Position numbers and translations under genes: made by a program. A DNA stretch of 20,307 nt, taken from the IMG/VR virus record IMGVR_UViG_3300023119_000163, positions 1 through 20,307 of that record. One strand, 5' to 3'. Within the stretch, counting starts at the first letter, position 1; every line of letters starts with the position of its first letter. The notes under the pieces are model-generated. The model saw only the letters and a list, made by a program, of their open reading frames with translations. It was not told the DNA's origin and searched no databases. Origin of the DNA: a virus. Positions 1,757-11,794 of this stretch are shown here, in pieces.

Positions 1757-1788
1757 GTAAAAGTGGTAGCTTTATTAGAAGCTACCAC
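1757..1788 (-). terminator. Intrinsic terminator of the giant fibre gene
   Basis: On the minus strand a perfect 10-bp stem (GTGGTAGCTT pairing with AAGCTACCAC, loop CTAATA) is followed by TTTTAC. The stem covers the last codons and the TAA (1775-1777) of the 2529-aa gene, so coding sequence and terminator overlap. It ends the operon that starts near 11275. Confidence 0.8.
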
Positions 1789-4700
1789 CATCTAGTGTAT
1801 CAGTCCATATTGGAGTTGCATCAACATCACTTGTTACAGTAAGTACTTGGAAACTTTCATTTATATCGCTTGTTCCTGCTGCATCTGTTACCTGTAACGG
1901 ATCAGCTGTATTACCATACAAAATACCATTTGTTGTAAATTCACTTACACCAGTACCACCATACTGTACTTCCAAATCATTGTTTGTTAGTATCAGTGTA
2001 CCATCAATGGTTACATCAATATCAAATGTAGTATTGCCATTTACAGTACCGCCTGTAAGTTTATTTAGGTATCTGTTCTCAACATATGTTGCAACGGCTT
2101 TCTGTGTAGGCACAGTATTAAAGTCTTGTGTACCAATACTTGCAATCAAATTTGCATTGTCACTAACTTCTTTCAGTTCAACACCAACCGGAATACCGTC
2201 TCTAATAAACGGACCAACACTGGTTAGACCCGACAAGTCAATTTCATTAGCGTTCAGTGTAATAGCACCTGTAAGAGCGTTTACACCAAAGAAGTTACCA
2301 ACTCTAAAGTTACCAATTTGGTCAACAGTACCACCAGCAAACACTCTACCTTGATTGCGTTCAATAATTTCTTGTTCTGGTATTGCTGTACCGCCAAAGA
2401 ACGGTAAGGCATTATATGTAACACCGGCACCAACATATTCAAATGCATGACCCGATGTACTAATTGTACTCACGTTGTACAGTGCTGCTTTCTTATCTTG
2501 TGTAACACTGGTTAAACCTGGGAAGATAGTAACTTGAGCTGTGCCACCATATTCTGCATTCAATGCATCTGTTGCTGTATCAGCAATAGTGTTTTGTGCA
2601 TTTAGCATTACGTTTCTAATACTATGGTAAACAGAACTACCTAGTTCGTGATTATGAGGTACTTCATGCCATCCTGCTGTGCTATTTTCTAAAACAGCTA
2701 AACCAATTCTATCAACTAACAATTCAATATTTTGTCCAACTGTTGCACTAGCATCATTGTTAGTTAGGAAAACTTGACTTTCTAAGTTGTTATAACTCTT
2801 AGTAACAGGATCGTTAGCAGCAACTTGTTTCATAATATCACCTAAGTAATAATATGTGTAAGCTGTTATATCACTTTGATTTGCATAGTCTGTATTTGTA
2901 AGATTGTTTAAAATTGCACCACTGTAATATGCTTCGCCTGCTCTGCGTGATTGCTTATTACCGCCATACATAATATCATATAGAACTGCATCAATAATGT
3001 ATCCAGTATCTCTCTTACACTTGTCTATGTTATAATCAAATCCTAGTATACTTTCGTTGATATAATCAACTGTGCCTTGTTGTATATTTGCTTTTTGAGC
3101 TAATAGTTGTGATCCAGTAGATCTTGTCAATAATGGTAACCAACTGTAATCTGCTTCAACTTCTGCAGGTGTTCCTACTAGTGTTTGATTATCAACAGCA
3201 TCTTTTACAATACCAATCAGACTTACTGCTGTTCCGCTTTCTACTATAGTGCCATACGCTCCGCCTAGTACTTGGCTTTCAGGGTTGCCTGCTTGAGGTA
3301 TTACAGCAACACCCTCGATACAACTTTCGACAATGTTTTGCAAGTGCGCATATGCTGCCACTGTATTGTCTTTTTGCTCATCTGGTAGATAATTAGCAGT
3401 TCCTAAGAAGTATGCTCTAGTTGCAATCAATGTTGCAATATTACCAGTGTATAGTAAATCATATGCAACTGCATCAAGTATTTGTCCAGTATCTGAGCGA
3501 CACTTGTCTTGATCATATGAGAATGCATTGTAAGTAGTTTCTAGGAAACTAATTGTGCCTTCTACAATTGTATCTTTTTCTGTTTGTAGATTATCAATTG
3601 CTGCTTGCGCACCTGCTGTTGCCCAAGTAGTATCTGGGTAAGTCAGTGTAGGCAATTGATCAGTGCCGTTTTCAATTACATCTTGTATAATTTGTAGTAA
3701 ATCTTCTGCTCTAGTCACTTCAGCTGCTGTTGCAGCACCTGCAACATTATCCTGTATTTCTACACTTTGTTCTGGATCTGCTACTGTTACATCTAATAAT
3801 ACATCGCCTAATAGTGTTTTAACCCAGCCTAATGCTTGGGCAGTTTCAGTTTGTTGTCCGCCTACTTGACTTGATGCGCCAACATAGTAACTTTGTGCTG
3901 CTTGATAAGTTGCAGCATTCCCGCCGTAAAGTATATCATAAGTTAGTGCATCAATAATATATTTTGTATCTCTGTTACACTTTGCACTATCAAACGTAAA
4001 GTCTCTAGTAAATGTAAAGTTGATATAATCAATTACAAGATTTTGTAATGCAGATGTTCTATCTATTAGTGATGAAAAATCAGCTTGTAAATCTACATTT
4101 ACCCAACTTAAATCTGTTTCATTATCAGAAGGTAATACCGAAATGTCTTCGGAGTTTATAACATCTTCTACATATTGAATCAAGTTATCGGCTGTGCCTG
4201 CTGGAATAGGTCCTGCGCCACCTAGACTTACATCTTGTGTTATTCCTGTTTGTTCTAAAGTTCCGTGTGCAATATTTTGAATAACATCTGATAAAACATT
4301 TGCTAATTCGTTGTATGCTGCAACAGTTGCTACCTTTTGTCCTGCACCTAATTGACTTTGTGTACCTACATAATAACTTTCAGCTGCTTGCTTTGTTGCA
4401 AGGTTACCTGGATACAAAATGTCATAACAAATAGCATCAACAATGTATCTTACATCTCTTGCACATTTATCTTCATCAAATACTAAACTTGGATAGTTAT
4501 TTGTCACATATGCTGTTGTTTCTGCTGCAAGGAAATCTCTGTTGATCTGTAATTGGTCTACTGCTAATGTAAAGTTTGCATTTATTCCGCTGTCAGGGAA
4601 TACAATAGCGTCTGCTGCTGTATCAGTACTAACTTCACCATTTAATATAATATCCAAAATTTCATTGAAACCAGCTTTTACTCGAGATTTAAATAAACTT

Positions 4701-7700
4701 GATAATCTAAAGAATTCTTCATCAATTCTGTCTCTCAGATATTCAATTGCTTTTACAGTTTGTAGATTTTGTCCACTTAGCACATACGAACTATTTGCAC
4801 GTTGATATGCTAAACCTGCTGTTACACTGTTATAGTTTGTTCCTATTGCAGCATCATAAGATACTGCTTCAATCATTATAGCAACATCTCTTTCACACTT
4901 CGCCTCATCGTATATAAATGACTGGAAAGTGTTAGCAATAAAGATAGAAACGTTTTCTTGTAGTGTTTCTTTATTGCCTTTAATTGTGTTATAAGCCTGT
5001 TGCTTTTCAGTTGATGCCCATGCAATGCTCGGAGTTTGTGTTGCTGGAACACTGTCTAAGTTACCCGCTCTAATTACATCTTCTATAATTTGAACTAAGC
5101 CTTCAGCGTCATCTGATTCAGTTGAACTTGCAGGTGTGCCTGCTGTATTTTGCGATTCTGCGTTTGCAGGTGTTTTAACAACTGCTGCTTCAATAACAAT
5201 ATCACCTATAATATCTTTCAATCTAGCATAAGCATCAGCCGTTGCGGCCTCTTCGCTTGGACTTCCTAGTTGGCTAACGCCATCAACAAAATAACTGTTA
5301 GCAACTGTGATAGTTGCACTGTTTCCACCGTACAAAATGTCATGACACAGTGCATCAACAATGTAACCTACATCTCTTTCGCATTTTACACTATCGTAAG
5401 TTAAACTTGGAAAGTTTGCTGCAATCCATGCTGTAATCTCTCTAATAATAAATTGTTTATTCGCAATAAGTTGATCTTTTGCTTCAACAGCGTTAGGTGT
5501 TGGTAGTACACTTGGAGTAGGAAATACCAATGCATCTGCGGCTGTATCTGTGCTGATCACACCATTTTCTAAAATATCAATTACTTCATCCATTGCTGCA
5601 TTAGACAATGGTTCAACAACATCTGTTAGTCCTAACAACACTAATTGTGATTTTAGTTCTTGCAGTGCTGCTACTGTTTGTATTTTTTGTGTATCTTGCA
5701 AATAAGCGTTACTTGCTCTTTGATACGCTAAACCTGCTGTCACGCTGTTGTAATTTGTGCCTAAACTAATATCTAATGCTACTGCATCTGCAATTAGGCC
5801 AACATCTCTTTCACACTTTGTTCTGTCAAATGTAAAGTTTTGATAGTTGTTTTGTATAAATGCAACTGCTTCTGCTGCAAGAAAATCTCTATTGTTTTGT
5901 AGTTGTGCTTTTGCTTCAATTACACCTGCACTTGCACCAGTTGGATTGGTAAATGTTAGCGGATCTGCACTTGTATCGGTGCTTACTACACCATTGTTTA
6001 AAATGTCAATCACTTCATCAAAGTTTGCTTCAACTGCTGTTTGTGTGCCTGCATCTCCTGCTGTTGCAAGACTTGCTTCGCCTTTTGCATAGTTTAATGC
6101 TGCTGTTGTTTCTGCTAACTGATCAGCTACAACTTTAGTGCTATTAGCTCTTTGATATGCTAATCCATTGGTTACAGCATTATAGTTTGTACCAAGTAAT
6201 GCGTCATAACCTGCACCATCTATGATAATTCCTGTGTCTCTACGACACTTTGTTTCATCATATGTAAAGTTGTTTGCATTGATATATGCTACAACATCTT
6301 CTTGTAAGAATGCACGGTTTGCAACCAGTTGTTCGTGTGCATTTATCAATGCTGTTGCAGCAGGACCTGGTGTTGGATATAAATTACCTTCACTTGGTAA
6401 TTGATCATATTCAATTATGTTTAGAATATCATCAAACAGGTCACTTACAGTTTGCTGGAATGTTGCATCTCTATTAGCTGCTTCGACTGCTAACCTACCT
6501 GCATATCTCAATGCAATAATTGTAGCAGGTTTTTGCTCAGTATTTAGATATGCAACGTTTGCTCTTGAGTATGCAAGACCTGCTGTAATACTGTGATGGT
6601 TAGTGCTTAGTAGAGCATCTCTGTACACAGCATCTATTAGATATCCCACGTCTCTTTTACATTTTTCAACATTGTATGTAAGTGTAGGATTATTAGCAAG
6701 ATTGTAATCAATTGCTAATCCAATGTTATTTGACACTTGAGATAGTATCTCATTGAATGCTTCTACTTGTGGAATAGGCTCATCTTCTACAAGAGGATAT
6801 GTTTTAGTATCTAGATTTGTCAGTGCTTGCTCGTTGATTACTAATTCTAAATTTTGTATCAATCCTGCTAGAATTGTTGCTTCAACTTGTGTAGCATCTC
6901 CGCTTGAAAAATCTTGCGATTCTACATTTCCTACGGTTGCAGTAACAGTTAAACCTCTTACCAAGCGTTGCGAAATAAATCTTACTCTTGCAAAAGAATC
7001 TTCAATTGCAGAAATTTGTTCTGCTGTAAAGTTAGACCAAGTAACATTTGTAAAGATATATTGTGTCTCTTGTACAGTAGCAGTGTTACCACCATACATT
7101 ACATCATAACTTAGTGCATCTACTAGATTTTCAAGATGTGCAGTCCATTCTGCTACATCATATGTAATTGTATCACTTTGTGTGTCCAAGTATGCAAACC
7201 ATTCTGCAACAATAAAATCTTTGTTTGCTTGTAAATGATCTTTCGCATCAATACCGTTTTGTCCAGAACCAACCGAAGCTGGATAAGTTGACACAATACC
7301 TGAACTATCACCGTCATCTACAACGTTTTTAAGTATGTTTATTGTTTCTGTAACAGCAGCTAGTGCTGGTCCGTTTGCTTGAACTTTTGCCAATGCGCTA
7401 AACAGTTGATACAAATAATCAAAACTAGATAAGAACATACTTCTAAAACGTGGACGATAAGTAAATTCTTGTGCTTGTCTTACAACATTGTGATTACTAC
7501 CGTGGGCAACATAATATGCCATCTCGGTTAGTATTTGTGTTAGTTCTGTTGTATATGTAGATTGATTATAACTTAGTTCAGTGAATTGGTCATTTATATA
7601 AGCAGTCAACTCATTTATAATAAAGTCTCTGTTAGCAAGGATATTATCTTTTGCTTCGATAACTTCATCGTCTATAAGTGTTAAATCATTCAAACTATCA

Positions 7701-9364
7701 GCAAGATCGCTTCCTAAATAATTTGTGTAACTACTATCACCTGCATTGAGTGTATCAACAATAACTGCAAATCTTTGATCAATTTCTTCTTTCATTGCAA
7801 GATTGTCAGTTAGTGCTTTCATTTCATCACGTGTAGCTTCAATACCATAAATTGTAGGAGCTAACTGGTCAAGAATCACTTTTCTACTTGTGCTACGCAA
7901 ATAACTTGTAGCAGCCGCAGTAGATTGATAATATGTTCCAAAAACAATATCACTTGTTACAGCATCAATGATTCTTCTAATATCACGTTTACAAGTTTCA
8001 ACATTGTATTTGAAAGGATTTACAGATATTTCATTTGCAGTAATGTAATAATATGTATCATCACCTTCAAATTTAATAATACTACCTGTTTGAGGTTTGT
8101 CTCTCAAACTTGCAACTTCAATGATACTATTGGTTCTTAAATTTACATCTGCTGTTGCATCAACACTAGCGCCTCCGCCGATAAATCTAACTTGAGGAAT
8201 TTCGGTATATCCGCTACCTCCATCAATAATACTTACAGCAGATACAGTACCTGTTGTAAAATCAACTTGAGCAGTACCTGTTGCTGTTGTTCCGCCGGCA
8301 CCAAGTGGTGGATCAAATTCAACTGTAGGTACACCAGAATAACCCAATCCTGGGAAGTCTAGCGTAACACTTGCAACACTTGAATAATAATCTTGTGTTG
8401 GAACAGCAGTGGTATATGCAACTGGATAGAAGCCATCTGCAACAACACCTTCTGTACCAAAGTCACTAACACTGTTCGAAATTGATAGGTATCCACCTTT
8501 GGTTGTTAGGAAGCCCACGCTACAGAAAACTGAGAAGCAACTAACAATCTGTGTATAACCAAAGTTTGTAATATGGAATCCAATACCACCTTGAGAAATC
8601 TGTGTAAACGCATCAGCAACAAATGAAAACACAAGTGATGCTGGATCATACTCGTCTCCGTCAACAAGTATACCGCCACCGCCGCCAGTTGGATTGATTT
8701 GTTTTTCTACTGGAAGACTTGGGTTATCTTCTAGTGTAAGAGGTCTGGCTCCTGGTTCAATTCCAGGAATCTGAACTGTTTCAAAAGGAATAAATTCTGT
8801 TCCATCGTTTAACCAAGGACCGTTCATGTTAGTACAGTTTTGCACGTACGGCGATGTTGTTACAAGAGCGCCTGGACGTATTCTTGCACACCATCCAGGT
8901 GCTCTTAGTCCTCTAAATGTCATCTGGAATAAGTAACAACCGTTACCCATAAAGAACAAATCATCTGTGTTGTTCTTAGGAAAAATTCTTGTGTTACGTA
9001 ATTCGCCTTGTCCTGAAACAGTTACAAAATCACGAAGTGTGATAGGATTGTTTTCATAATAGTCGCCAGGAGCAACTATAATCAAACTACCTTCCGGAGC
9101 AACCTCGGCTGCTTTTTTAACACTAGCAAAAGCACCATTTTTATCTGCACTTTGGCCATCGTTGTCATCACTTCCGTCTTCTGTTACATAGTATACATTT
9201 CTTGTTTTAGGACCGGAAGCATCACCTGTAACAACCACGTCGGCATCAATTCTAAATTGTTTTCCCTCATCGAGGTTCATTTCCATGTTGCCGTCAGCTG
9301 TCAAGATAAATGTATTATCTCCAACCTTCCTGCTATGTATCGACTGTCTCTTTATAAAACTCAT
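1775..9364 (-). CDS. Giant repeat-bearing virion/tail-fibre protein (2529 aa)
   Basis: This is the largest gene in the window. Its ATG at 9364 directly follows the TAA of the preceding gene, with GGAAG just upstream as a weak ribosome site. Residues about 57-320 (starting VYYVTEDGSDDNDGQSADK, with APGDYYENNPI) look like a right-handed beta-helix. Residues about 327-412 hold two Gly-rich units (GLGYSGVPTVEF and GSGYTEIPQVRF) familiar from marine phage structural proteins. From about 450 to 2200 runs an array of about 12 helical repeats of 130-160 residues, each led by a K-C-x-R-D...I-D-A...Y-D...G-x-N signature. The C-terminus has fibre-like motifs (GHAFEYVGAGVTYNALPFFGG, GGTGVSEFTTNGILYGN). 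No enzyme residues or membrane segments were seen. It is probably a long tail or side fibre. Similar large proteins are known, from memory, in T4-like cyanophages; the exact position in the virion is not determined. Confidence 0.92.
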   Translation of the reverse strand: MSFIKRQSIHSRKVGDNTFILTADGNMEMNLDEGKQFRIDADVVVTGDASGPKTRNVYYVTEDGSDDNDGQSADKNGAFASVKKAAEVAPEGSLIIVAPGDYYENNPITLRDFVTVSGQGELRNTRIFPKNNTDDLFFMGNGCYLFQMTFRGLRAPGWCARIRPGALVTTSPYVQNCTNMNGPWLNDGTEFIPFETVQIPGIEPGARPLTLEDNPSLPVEKQINPTGGGGGILVDGDEYDPASLVFSFVADAFTQISQGGIGFHITNFGYTQIVSCFSVFCSVGFLTTKGGYLSISNSVSDFGTEGVVADGFYPVAYTTAVPTQDYYSSVASVTLDFPGLGYSGVPTVEFDPPLGAGGTTATGTAQVDFTTGTVSAVSIIDGGSGYTEIPQVRFIGGGASVDATADVNLRTNSIIEVASLRDKPQTGSIIKFEGDDTYYYITANEISVNPFKYNVETCKRDIRRIIDAVTSDIVFGTYYQSTAAATSYLRSTSRKVILDQLAPTIYGIEATRDEMKALTDNLAMKEEIDQRFAVIVDTLNAGDSSYTNYLGSDLADSLNDLTLIDDEVIEAKDNILANRDFIINELTAYINDQFTELSYNQSTYTTELTQILTEMAYYVAHGSNHNVVRQAQEFTYRPRFRSMFLSSFDYLYQLFSALAKVQANGPALAAVTETINILKNVVDDGDSSGIVSTYPASVGSGQNGIDAKDHLQANKDFIVAEWFAYLDTQSDTITYDVAEWTAHLENLVDALSYDVMYGGNTATVQETQYIFTNVTWSNFTAEQISAIEDSFARVRFISQRLVRGLTVTATVGNVESQDFSSGDATQVEATILAGLIQNLELVINEQALTNLDTKTYPLVEDEPIPQVEAFNEILSQVSNNIGLAIDYNLANNPTLTYNVEKCKRDVGYLIDAVYRDALLSTNHHSITAGLAYSRANVAYLNTEQKPATIIALRYAGRLAVEAANRDATFQQTVSDLFDDILNIIEYDQLPSEGNLYPTPGPAATALINAHEQLVANRAFLQEDVVAYINANNFTYDETKCRRDTGIIIDGAGYDALLGTNYNAVTNGLAYQRANSTKVVADQLAETTAALNYAKGEASLATAGDAGTQTAVEANFDEVIDILNNGVVSTDTSADPLTFTNPTGASAGVIEAKAQLQNNRDFLAAEAVAFIQNNYQNFTFDRTKCERDVGLIADAVALDISLGTNYNSVTAGLAYQRASNAYLQDTQKIQTVAALQELKSQLVLLGLTDVVEPLSNAAMDEVIDILENGVISTDTAADALVFPTPSVLPTPNAVEAKDQLIANKQFIIREITAWIAANFPSLTYDSVKCERDVGYIVDALCHDILYGGNSATITVANSYFVDGVSQLGSPSEEAATADAYARLKDIIGDIVIEAAVVKTPANAESQNTAGTPASSTESDDAEGLVQIIEDVIRAGNLDSVPATQTPSIAWASTEKQQAYNTIKGNKETLQENVSIFIANTFQSFIYDEAKCERDVAIMIEAVSYDAAIGTNYNSVTAGLAYQRANSSYVLSGQNLQTVKAIEYLRDRIDEEFFRLSSLFKSRVKAGFNEILDIILNGEVSTDTAADAIVFPDSGINANFTLAVDQLQINRDFLAAETTAYVTNNYPSLVFDEDKCARDVRYIVDAICYDILYPGNLATKQAAESYYVGTQSQLGAGQKVATVAAYNELANVLSDVIQNIAHGTLEQTGITQDVSLGGAGPIPAGTADNLIQYVEDVINSEDISVLPSDNETDLSWVNVDLQADFSSLIDRTSALQNLVIDYINFTFTRDFTFDSAKCNRDTKYIIDALTYDILYGGNAATYQAAQSYYVGASSQVGGQQTETAQALGWVKTLLGDVLLDVTVADPEQSVEIQDNVAGAATAAEVTRAEDLLQIIQDVIENGTDQLPTLTYPDTTWATAGAQAAIDNLQTEKDTIVEGTISFLETTYNAFSYDQDKCRSDTGQILDAVAYDLLYTGNIATLIATRAYFLGTANYLPDEQKDNTVAAYAHLQNIVESCIEGVAVIPQAGNPESQVLGGAYGTIVESGTAVSLIGIVKDAVDNQTLVGTPAEVEADYSWLPLLTRSTGSQLLAQKANIQQGTVDYINESILGFDYNIDKCKRDTGYIIDAVLYDIMYGGNKQSRRAGEAYYSGAILNNLTNTDYANQSDITAYTYYYLGDIMKQVAANDPVTKSYNNLESQVFLTNNDASATVGQNIELLVDRIGLAVLENSTAGWHEVPHNHELGSSVYHSIRNVMLNAQNTIADTATDALNAEYGGTAQVTIFPGLTSVTQDKKAALYNVSTISTSGHAFEYVGAGVTYNALPFFGGTAIPEQEIIERNQGRVFAGGTVDQIGNFRVGNFFGVNALTGAITLNANEIDLSGLTSVGPFIRDGIPVGVELKEVSDNANLIASIGTQDFNTVPTQKAVATYVENRYLNKLTGGTVNGNTTFDIDVTIDGTLILTNNDLEVQYGGTGVSEFTTNGILYGNTADPLQVTDAAGTSDINESFQVLTVTSDVDATPIWTDTLDGGSF
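2950..8010 (-). repeat. Array of about 12 protein-level helical repeats
   Basis: The signature C-x-R-D-(3)-I-x-D-A-(2)-x-D-(3)-G-x-N recurs with its cysteine at about residues 457, 900, 1039, 1184, 1328, 1489, 1635, 1795, 1955 and 2115 of the 2529-aa protein. Two degenerate copies lacking the cysteine sit near 610 and 740. Two unit types are visible: about 145 aa with GTNYNSVTAGLAYQRA, and about 160 aa with YGGNxAT and YYVGxxSQ. One copy also appears at the end of the visible part of the left-edge gene. DNA identity between copies is only moderate, so the duplications are old. Confidence 0.85.
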
Positions 9365-10779: not shown

Positions 10780-11187
10780 TTAAACTGCTGTTAGTACAAT
10801 ATAATCGCTTGAACTATCGTTTTCTAAAACCCAAGTGTATCTGTTACCTGAAAAATCTGTTGCAATTCTTTTTGTCATTTTTGCAATTGGAGTAGGTGCT
10901 GCACTGTTTCCGCCTACATAGCCGTTGATTCTCATTTCGCCATTGCTGTTAGGAATTGTGCTTTGTAGTACAAGTGGACCTAAATTAGTTCCGTCTTGAT
11001 TTTTACAAGTAAATGTTTTTGCGCCACGCTGTTTGTAAATGTATGCGTAGTTTGTTGTTGTGTTGTATGTTGCATCAGTGTATGCAGTTCCGCCTGCATA
11101 TGCTTCTACTCTGATACCTGTTGCTGATCCTAATGGTGTACCAATAGCGTCGGTTCCAAGTACATCTTTTTTTAGTGGACGTCCCAT
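10780..11187 (-). CDS. 'MGRPL' family marine-phage structural protein (135 aa)
   Basis: I chose the start at 11187 because AAGGAG stands 6 nt before this ATG. An upstream in-frame ATG at 11280 has no ribosome site and lies within the late promoter box. The protein begins MGRPLKKDVLGTDAIG, matching an N-terminus (MGRPLNKxxFG) that I recall from small structural proteins of T4-like cyanophages and pelagiphages. The body is beta-rich (TGIRVEAYAGGTAYTDATY; RYTWVLENDSSSDYIVLTAV at the end). It is the first gene of the left late operon, after a leader of about 80 nt. It is probably a minor virion protein; the function is not known. Confidence 0.85.
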   Translation of the reverse strand: MGRPLKKDVLGTDAIGTPLGSATGIRVEAYAGGTAYTDATYNTTTNYAYIYKQRGAKTFTCKNQDGTNLGPLVLQSTIPNSNGEMRINGYVGGNSAAPTPIAKMTKRIATDFSGNRYTWVLENDSSSDYIVLTAV

Positions 11188-11270
11188 TGTTTTCTCCTTA
11201 TGTTGACGTTCTAGGTCTACGCAGTGGGTGCTGCATAAGTCCTCGACGAGGCTCATTACCTTATCATAAG

Positions 11271-11278
11271 TATTTATC
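11271..11278 (-). promoter_or_regulatory. T4-type late promoter box (GATAAATA)
   Basis: GATAAATA matches the late consensus TATAAATA at 7 of 8 positions and lies downstream of the ncRNA terminator and about 85 nt before the ATG at 11187. It is the likely start of the 135-353-110-2529 aa operon. The leader holds a short inverted repeat (CCTCGTCGAGG). Confidence 0.6.
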
Positions 11279-11307
11279 ATTTTAGTAAAAATGGGTTATT
11301 ACATCTA

Positions 11308-11342
11308 CAAAAAAAGGCCTGCAATTATGTTGCAGACCTTTT
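11308..11342 (-). terminator. Strong intrinsic terminator of the intergenic RNA
   Basis: On the minus strand GGTCTGCAA pairs with TTGCAGGCC (one G-U) around the loop CATAA. A-T pairs extend the base of the stem, which is followed by seven T residues. This is a textbook Rho-independent terminator. The next 135 bases upstream hold no plausible gene, so it appears to serve the intergenic RNA. Confidence 0.9.
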
Positions 11343-11560
11343 CTATAATATATGATAGGTTGGACTAAGGATTACCAACAACCGCCTCAACAGATCCTGT
11401 CCATTAATTCAGCGGAGCCTAGCATCGGATAGTTACTTCCAAAATACGCATCTTCATGTCTCCATGCTCATGCGCTGCCACTACAGCTACTAGCCAAGTT
11501 ACTGCCTCTGTAAAGCAGCGTTTCCTTGCACTATCTAACTCGGACCGTCGTCTTTGTTAT
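11309..11560 (-). ncRNA. Candidate structured non-coding RNA (about 250 nt)
   Basis: The 250 bases between a sigma70-like promoter and an intrinsic terminator contain no convincing ORF but several complementary segments. From the 5' end of the minus strand: GATAGT (about 11530) pairs with ACTATC (about 11430) and encloses three hairpins. These are CTGCTTT-ACA-GAGGCAG inside an outer CAAG/CTTG helix; GCTGT-AGTG-GCAGC; and CGCAT-GAG-CATG-GAGA-CATG-AAG-ATGCG, with a GNRA-type loop. Downstream lie ACAG-GAT-CTGT and GGTTG...CAACC. GTCC near the 5' end can pair with GGAC after the core. The base composition is visibly less AT-rich than typical for an intergenic gap. I could not match it to tmRNA, RNase P RNA, SRP RNA, tRNA or the glutamine riboswitch. 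Function unknown. Confidence 0.75.
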
Positions 11561-11566
11561 GTATTA

Positions 11567-11594
11567 AATATAGCATATACAAAATAAAAGTCAA
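11567..11594 (-). promoter_or_regulatory. Sigma70-type promoter of the intergenic RNA
   Basis: TTGACT (11589-11594) and TATATT (11567-11572) are separated by 16 bp, each matching the bacterial consensus at 5 of 6 positions. Transcription would begin near 11560. It lies directly after the stop codon of the cold-shock-like gene. It is unlike the late boxes elsewhere in the window, which suggests that host holoenzyme transcribes this RNA, perhaps early or constitutively. Confidence 0.7.
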
Positions 11595-11599
11595 CCAGT

Positions 11600-11794
11600 T
11601 TATTCAACTTTTTTTAAATTTTCTGCATGTTTTCTGCCATTTTTTTCTATTGGCTCGTATTCAACTCTATCACCTAACACAAGTTTGTGTTCTTTCTTTT
11701 TAAACAAAACATCGTGTCTATTTTGTCCCCATTCGTCTGGACGTATCAATCCGTGTATACCAATAAATTTATAAACTTGTCCTGTTACTATCAT
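11600..11794 (-). CDS. Cold-shock-domain-like small nucleic-acid-binding protein (64 aa)
   Basis: Length and pattern fit a single cold-shock domain. G5-x-V7-x-x-F10 opens the fold. IHGLIRP (13-19) stands where bacterial Csp proteins have RNP1 (KGFGFI). HDVLF (27-31) stands where RNP2 (DVFVH) lies. LGDRVEYEP (40-48) and NGRKHAENL (52-60) match the usual G-x-x-V-x-F and A-x-x-V end. RNP1 has lost its aromatic residues, so single-strand RNA/DNA binding may be weaker or altered. The ATG overlaps the stop of the MTHFR-like gene (TAATG) and GGAG lies upstream, so the two are coupled. It may act as an RNA chaperone or anti-terminator during infection (inference). Cyanobacteria usually lack this family, which hints at a heterotrophic host. 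Confidence 0.75.
   Translation of the reverse strand: MIVTGQVYKFIGIHGLIRPDEWGQNRHDVLFKKKEHKLVLGDRVEYEPIEKNGRKHAENLKKVE

Follow-up and report, generated by a model that had tools for sequence, protein, structure and literature searches.

A divergent manA-family RNA in a predicted stand-alone transcription unit of a T4-like phage

Gene context and transcription signals

The stretch of DNA that we analysed, hereafter the window, comprises positions 1 to 20,307 of the IMG/VR virus record IMGVR_UViG_3300023119_000163. It covers part of the genome of a T4-like phage, with a capsid block (portal, gp21, gp22, gp23) and a fibre-like gene cluster, all on the minus strand. Within the fibre cluster, a 2529-aa open reading frame (ORF; 1775-9364, minus strand) contains recurring KCxRDxGxIIDA-like segments and has no Pfam match. 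The locus considered here lies on the same strand, between a small ORF that ends at 11600 and the next operon. The original prediction had described it as free of genes, and the ORF list indeed holds no ORF of 60 aa or more within 11308-11594. Neither a tRNA nor a tmRNA was matched in the window by ARAGORN or Rfam, and wcaG RNA (Rfam RF01761) gave no match there. Judged from its sequence, the minus strand is predicted to carry one transcription unit, made up of a sigma70-type promoter, a structured RNA of about 205 nt and an intrinsic terminator (Table 1).

Table 1. Features predicted at the RNA locus and in the leader of the following gene (window coordinates)
Feature	Position	Strand	Detail
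sigma70-type promoter	11567-11594	-	-35 TTGACT 11594-11589; 16-nt spacer; -10 TATATT 11572-11567; TG before -10
Divergent manA RNA body	11352-11560	-	Rfam match 11554-11349; covariation
P1, 5' hairpin, GACG loop	11536-11559	-	11559-11556 with 11539-11536; 11552-11550 with 11545-11543
Closing helix (pseudoknot helix of the Rfam manA model)	11354-11535	-	11535-11531 with 11358-11354
P2 and P3 arm	11495-11528	-	P2 11528-11525 with 11498-11495; P3 11519-11515 with 11505-11501
P4 multi-branch arm	11419-11493	-	contains P5 11487-11477, P6 (GAGA loop) 11474-11447, P7 11442-11425
P8	11382-11415	-	P8a supported by alignment
P9, 3' hairpin	11359-11379	-	100% of cells paired; 2 pairs with two-sided changes
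Intrinsic terminator	11309-11344	-	15-pair hairpin 11344-11310 and T run
T4-type late box GATAAATA of the following operon, outside the RNA unit	11271-11278	-	late-box scan
freshwater-2 RNA (RF02980), leader of the next late gene	11185-11252	-	46.7 bits, full length; gathering score 49.9

A profile search returned at least 125 distinct homologous matches in the fetched loci, and 67 dereplicated homologues with both flanks serve below as a sample among the matches listed; the rules for promoters, terminators and dereplication are those of our own scripts. A lone site such as TTGACT-16-TATATT does not exceed chance (17 found against 14.2 expected in a 5-kb scan). Its conservation is another matter: a sigma70-type promoter with at least 9 of 12 matches precedes the RNA in 65 of these 67 homologues, against 28 in shuffles, which here and for terminators and late boxes preserve base composition only. 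In nearly all of the 67, the -10 element ends 30-40 nt upstream of a GATAGTG motif, so that the first hairpin begins near the expected transcription start, which would lie near 11560 in the window.

Behind the fold, an intrinsic terminator is found in 41 of the 67 listed homologues (1.4 in shuffles), and a folding-based detector reports 40. It stands clear of the fold, at a median distance of 11 nt, and the sequences of its stem vary while the hairpin stays. It was not found in the remaining 26, some of which continue into gp32 or rubrerythrin. With promoter and terminator both kept among the homologues, the self-contained transcription unit of the original prediction stands.

A T4-type late box follows the RNA within 130 nt in 49 of the 67 listed homologues (2.1 in shuffles) and precedes it in none of them, which bears out the earlier view that its promoter is of an early, host type unlike the late boxes around it. 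Over the entire window, late boxes show no enrichment: that strand has 3, where 3.6 would be expected. The locus is an early-to-late boundary, in which early promoter, manA RNA, terminator, late box and late operon succeed one another.

A second structured element, the freshwater-2 RNA, follows the late box and ends on an ATG of a 135-aa ORF, whose start is probably at 11187 and not at 11280. It scores above its cut-off in the homologous loci L260, L286, L145 and L007. Although it adjoins the manA RNA here and in homologous loci, it is a separate leader and no part of that RNA. Two of these loci also have a glutamine riboswitch (RF01739), separated from the manA relative by a few hundred bases (L260 5003-5050, plus strand; L286 5879-5926, minus strand).

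Fold, covariation and family membership

Within the GATAG/CTATC closing helix lie the P2-P3 arm, the P4 arm, which branches into P5, P6 and P7, and the helices P8 and P9; P1 is 5' of the closing helix. The original prediction had drawn a closing helix around three hairpins; the helix is present and the hairpins are supported, but the description was incomplete, since more arms are enclosed. The 255-nt RNA has a folding energy of -80.1 kcal/mol (z = -3.0).

We scored the manA-derived structure on a MAFFT alignment of 39 homologues that had been fitted to no structure. Standard pairs occupy 92.4% of the pair cells, against 31-39% when the partners are slid by 1-3 columns, and the covariation score is 0.43 against 0.06-0.11. 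The compensatory changes to which the original prediction had looked were found: 35 of the 56 pairs are changed on both sides, against 6-17 in the slid controls. None of 500 shuffles matches any of these pairing or covariation measures, and RNAalifold, without prompting, predicts most of the same helices. A decayed gene can be rejected as the origin of the stretch, because no ORF of at least 60 aa covers it and its base changes are compensatory.

The support is distributed over most of the fold. P1 changes on both sides (GAC/GUC to GGA/UCC), as do 4 of the 5 pairs of P3, whereas P2 is invariant in the clade. In P6, the hairpin for which a GNRA-type loop (GAGA) and a purine internal loop had been proposed, all 9 pairs show two-sided changes and at least 99.5% of cells are paired; covariation thus upholds it. 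The inner helix P8b (11400-11390) is poorly supported, with 52% of cells paired. The closing helix is invariant inside the clade, yet both of its sides change between clades: it reads GAUAG/CUAUC in the window, GGGAG/CUCCC in P-SSM2 and others, GGAUG/CAUCC in S-CREM1 and UAUAG/CUAUA in the homologue L201. Loop and junction nucleotides are invariant across the 39 sequences. Loci retrieved with the pattern ATAGTGCAAGGAA, on which the dereplicated set was also filtered, cannot vary inside that motif.

The original prediction had recognised no known class in this RNA and had itself counted a match to one against its novelty. An Infernal search of Rfam aligns the window with manA RNA (RF01745) end to end (11554-11349, model positions 1-192 of 192; 32.8 bits; E = 3.5e-5, computed for the 20-kb window against all 4227 Rfam families). 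The claim of a new class thereby falls; those of a structure and a transcription unit survive. The match falls short of the gathering score, 55.2, which is a curator's inclusion threshold and not a structural feature, and at that threshold Rfam reports no match, the one to manA appearing only in E-value mode.

Since the window's own score is below the curated cut-off, membership was tested through its relatives. Three homologues (L201, L242 and L301) pass the manA gathering score, with 56.4-57.5 bits, and tie the clade to the family. In the reverse direction, a covariance model built solely from the 39 sequences of the window's clade (R1) detects the manA RNAs of P-SSM2, P-SSM4, S-SSM5 and S-CREM1 over their full length (E from 1e-10 to 4e-7), at the same sites that score 97-184 bits with the Rfam manA model. 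R1 finds one copy each in 13 of 24 records, of which those without a match may be fragments; the copy in S-SSM7 was not reported by it. From these sequence comparisons we conclude that the RNA of the window belongs to the manA family, as a divergent member, and represents no new RNA class.

Several other searches had a narrower yield. With strict filters, the Rfam manA model had no hit among 12 long contigs from relatives, and a DNA search with the S-CREM1 manA recovered no sequence but its own. Matches to annotated phages at the DNA level fall mainly on the terminator end (Enterococcus phages). Weak matches to Thr_leader, MicC, STnc30, STnc390 and Trp_leader are centred on the terminator hairpin, and these candidates were rejected. 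The clade pattern has 22 scattered matches in bacterial and archaeal genomes, fewer than the approximately 50 that we estimate by chance given how large that collection is, and thus gives no evidence for chromosomal copies.

Neighbourhoods of manA relatives

In S-SSM5, manA lies directly after gp23, the same place as in the window, and many relatives of the window RNA are located likewise, separated from gp23 by no more than a few small ORFs. The downstream neighbours differ between relatives. The fibre cluster is one of them; others, recognised by eye from their translations, we take to be gp32, rubrerythrin, a cold-shock protein and a nucleotidyltransferase-like protein. A tRNA-Gly follows the manA relative within about 10 nt in two loci (L153, L170) and follows manA by 1 nt in S-SSM7, while in S-CREM1 manA fills the gap between tRNA-Leu and tRNA-Asn. 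In S-CREM1, wcaG lies near manA; the two were described alongside each other as cyanophage RNAs of unknown function (PMC2864571).

Canonical manA RNAs also carry an early-type promoter immediately upstream. A near-consensus promoter is present in 83 of 86 dereplicated loci among the matches listed (4.5 in shuffles that preserve composition), and its -10 element mostly ends 20-32 nt before a GGGAGTG motif. A terminator follows in 27 of these 86 loci and an ARAGORN tRNA in 6, and in many loci a gene comes immediately next. A hairpin AGACCUAAGAUGCAACU...GGUCU with T runs recurs directly downstream of canonical manA (L383, L391, L404, L410, L415 and others); its conserved sequence makes it look like more than a plain terminator.

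The family description places manA in the 5' UTR of a gene, an association and not a structural criterion. The window RNA departs from it, having its own terminator, a late box and a second leader before the next gene, and the association fails also in S-SSM7 and S-CREM1, where tRNAs follow. What the window RNA shares with RF01745 is full-length homology, the helices including the closing helix, the upstream promoter and its occurrence in T4-like marine phages; it differs in having diverged below the gathering score and in its stand-alone anatomy. It is this anatomy, with its own early promoter, a terminator and a late box behind, that is new, and not the RNA class.

One lineage (L306, L317, L282, L240 and relatives) has a perfect or near-perfect TTGACA-17-TATAAT promoter and a manA without a terminator. 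A late box lies directly behind the RNA in most of its members, followed by a gp32-like gene, of which manA could here be the early leader. Among contigs with manA relatives, three contain a permuted tmRNA (RF04321) above its gathering score: L223 (12927-13260, plus strand), L301 (6326-6523, minus strand) and L284 (3702-3907, minus strand).

Action in cis or in trans

That the RNA has start and stop signals of its own suggests that it works by itself, beyond any control of the adjacent gene. Host RNA polymerase would act early at the sigma70-type promoter and begin transcription no more than a few nucleotides from the first hairpin; the transcript would fold into the manA architecture and be ended about 10 nt after the fold by the intrinsic terminator, which shows no sign of regulation. 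Both early synthesis by host polymerase and the end at the RNA's own terminator are read from the conserved signals. Later, the fibre operon would be read from a T4-type late box belonging to it. With such a division, the RNA would most likely be a separate, stable molecule whose fold acts in trans, on a factor of the host or of the phage. The packaged or host-decoy role offered in the original prediction would be a special case of such action. Transcription, its early timing, the stability of the product and action in trans are all what we infer from the arrangement of the locus, and we consider it probable that the divergent manA RNA is a free-standing early transcription unit of this kind.

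Weinberg et al. 2010 proposed that manA probably regulates in cis and might be a riboswitch (PMC2864571). Applied to the window, their proposal would have a ligand-bound manA fold decide whether the terminator forms and so control the fibre operon downstream. Many canonical manA RNAs precede genes, and the terminator stands directly behind the fold, as in many riboswitches; it does not, however, overlap the fold, and no anti-terminator pairing is seen between its arms and the RNA. The 5' arms of the terminators pair with their own RNA at -8.1 kcal/mol, with the RNAs of other members at -8.4 and, when the arms are shuffled, at -8.0, so that the duplex with the own arm is no stronger than with other members' RNAs (41 members; permutation p = 0.91). 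As the next operon has a late box and a leader of its own and the downstream genes are unrelated among relatives, we regard this attenuator as unlikely.

A structured 5' module could act in cis in some other way, for instance by protecting or insulating an early transcript, and would here be left as a stub that insulates late from early transcription. That the fold begins at the expected transcription start in canonical and divergent manA alike, and that manA heads tRNAs, genes or nothing, agrees with such a role. A plain terminator would nevertheless insulate without a conserved fold of about 200 nt, and loops and junctions invariant in 39 sequences exceed the needs of a generic stabiliser; we think this explanation improbable as well. 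Hardly credible is a new class that resembles manA by chance: although the window itself does not reach the gathering score, full-length matches are significant in both directions, homologues exceed that score, and the helices, the placement of the promoter and the position after gp23 in S-SSM5 are those of manA.

For the clade of the window, then, the free-standing form is the better reading than a leader. Many canonical manA RNAs run straight into a gene, so a leader role may still apply in the family at large. A tentative generalisation, to which we give somewhat less than even weight, is that manA RNAs are early phage RNAs acting in trans on the host and no riboswitches, sometimes co-transcribed with tRNAs or genes, and that the window's clade displays the complete stand-alone form.

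This large structured family, described in 2010, is on file as cis-regulatory. The portion of the literature naming RF01745 that was available to us reports no experiment on manA RNA, no ligand and no tested function. Equipped with an early promoter and a terminator of its own, and present in several unrelated neighbourhoods, the manA of this clade offers a defined RNA of about 250 nt for experiment, with which the choice between a riboswitch and a trans-acting phage RNA becomes directly testable for manA.

For annotation, divergent manA accounts for an unannotated gap in many contigs of T4-like phages. In three annotated genomes, whose manA regions are our loci L368, L370 and L371, hypothetical proteins overlap manA on the same strand: PSSM4_169.1 (NC_006884, 164884-165057) and SSSM5_127 (NC_015289, 116417-116623), both labelled 'T4-GC 428', and SSSM7_180 (NC_015287, 151441-151572). 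These three may be false gene calls on manA RNA.
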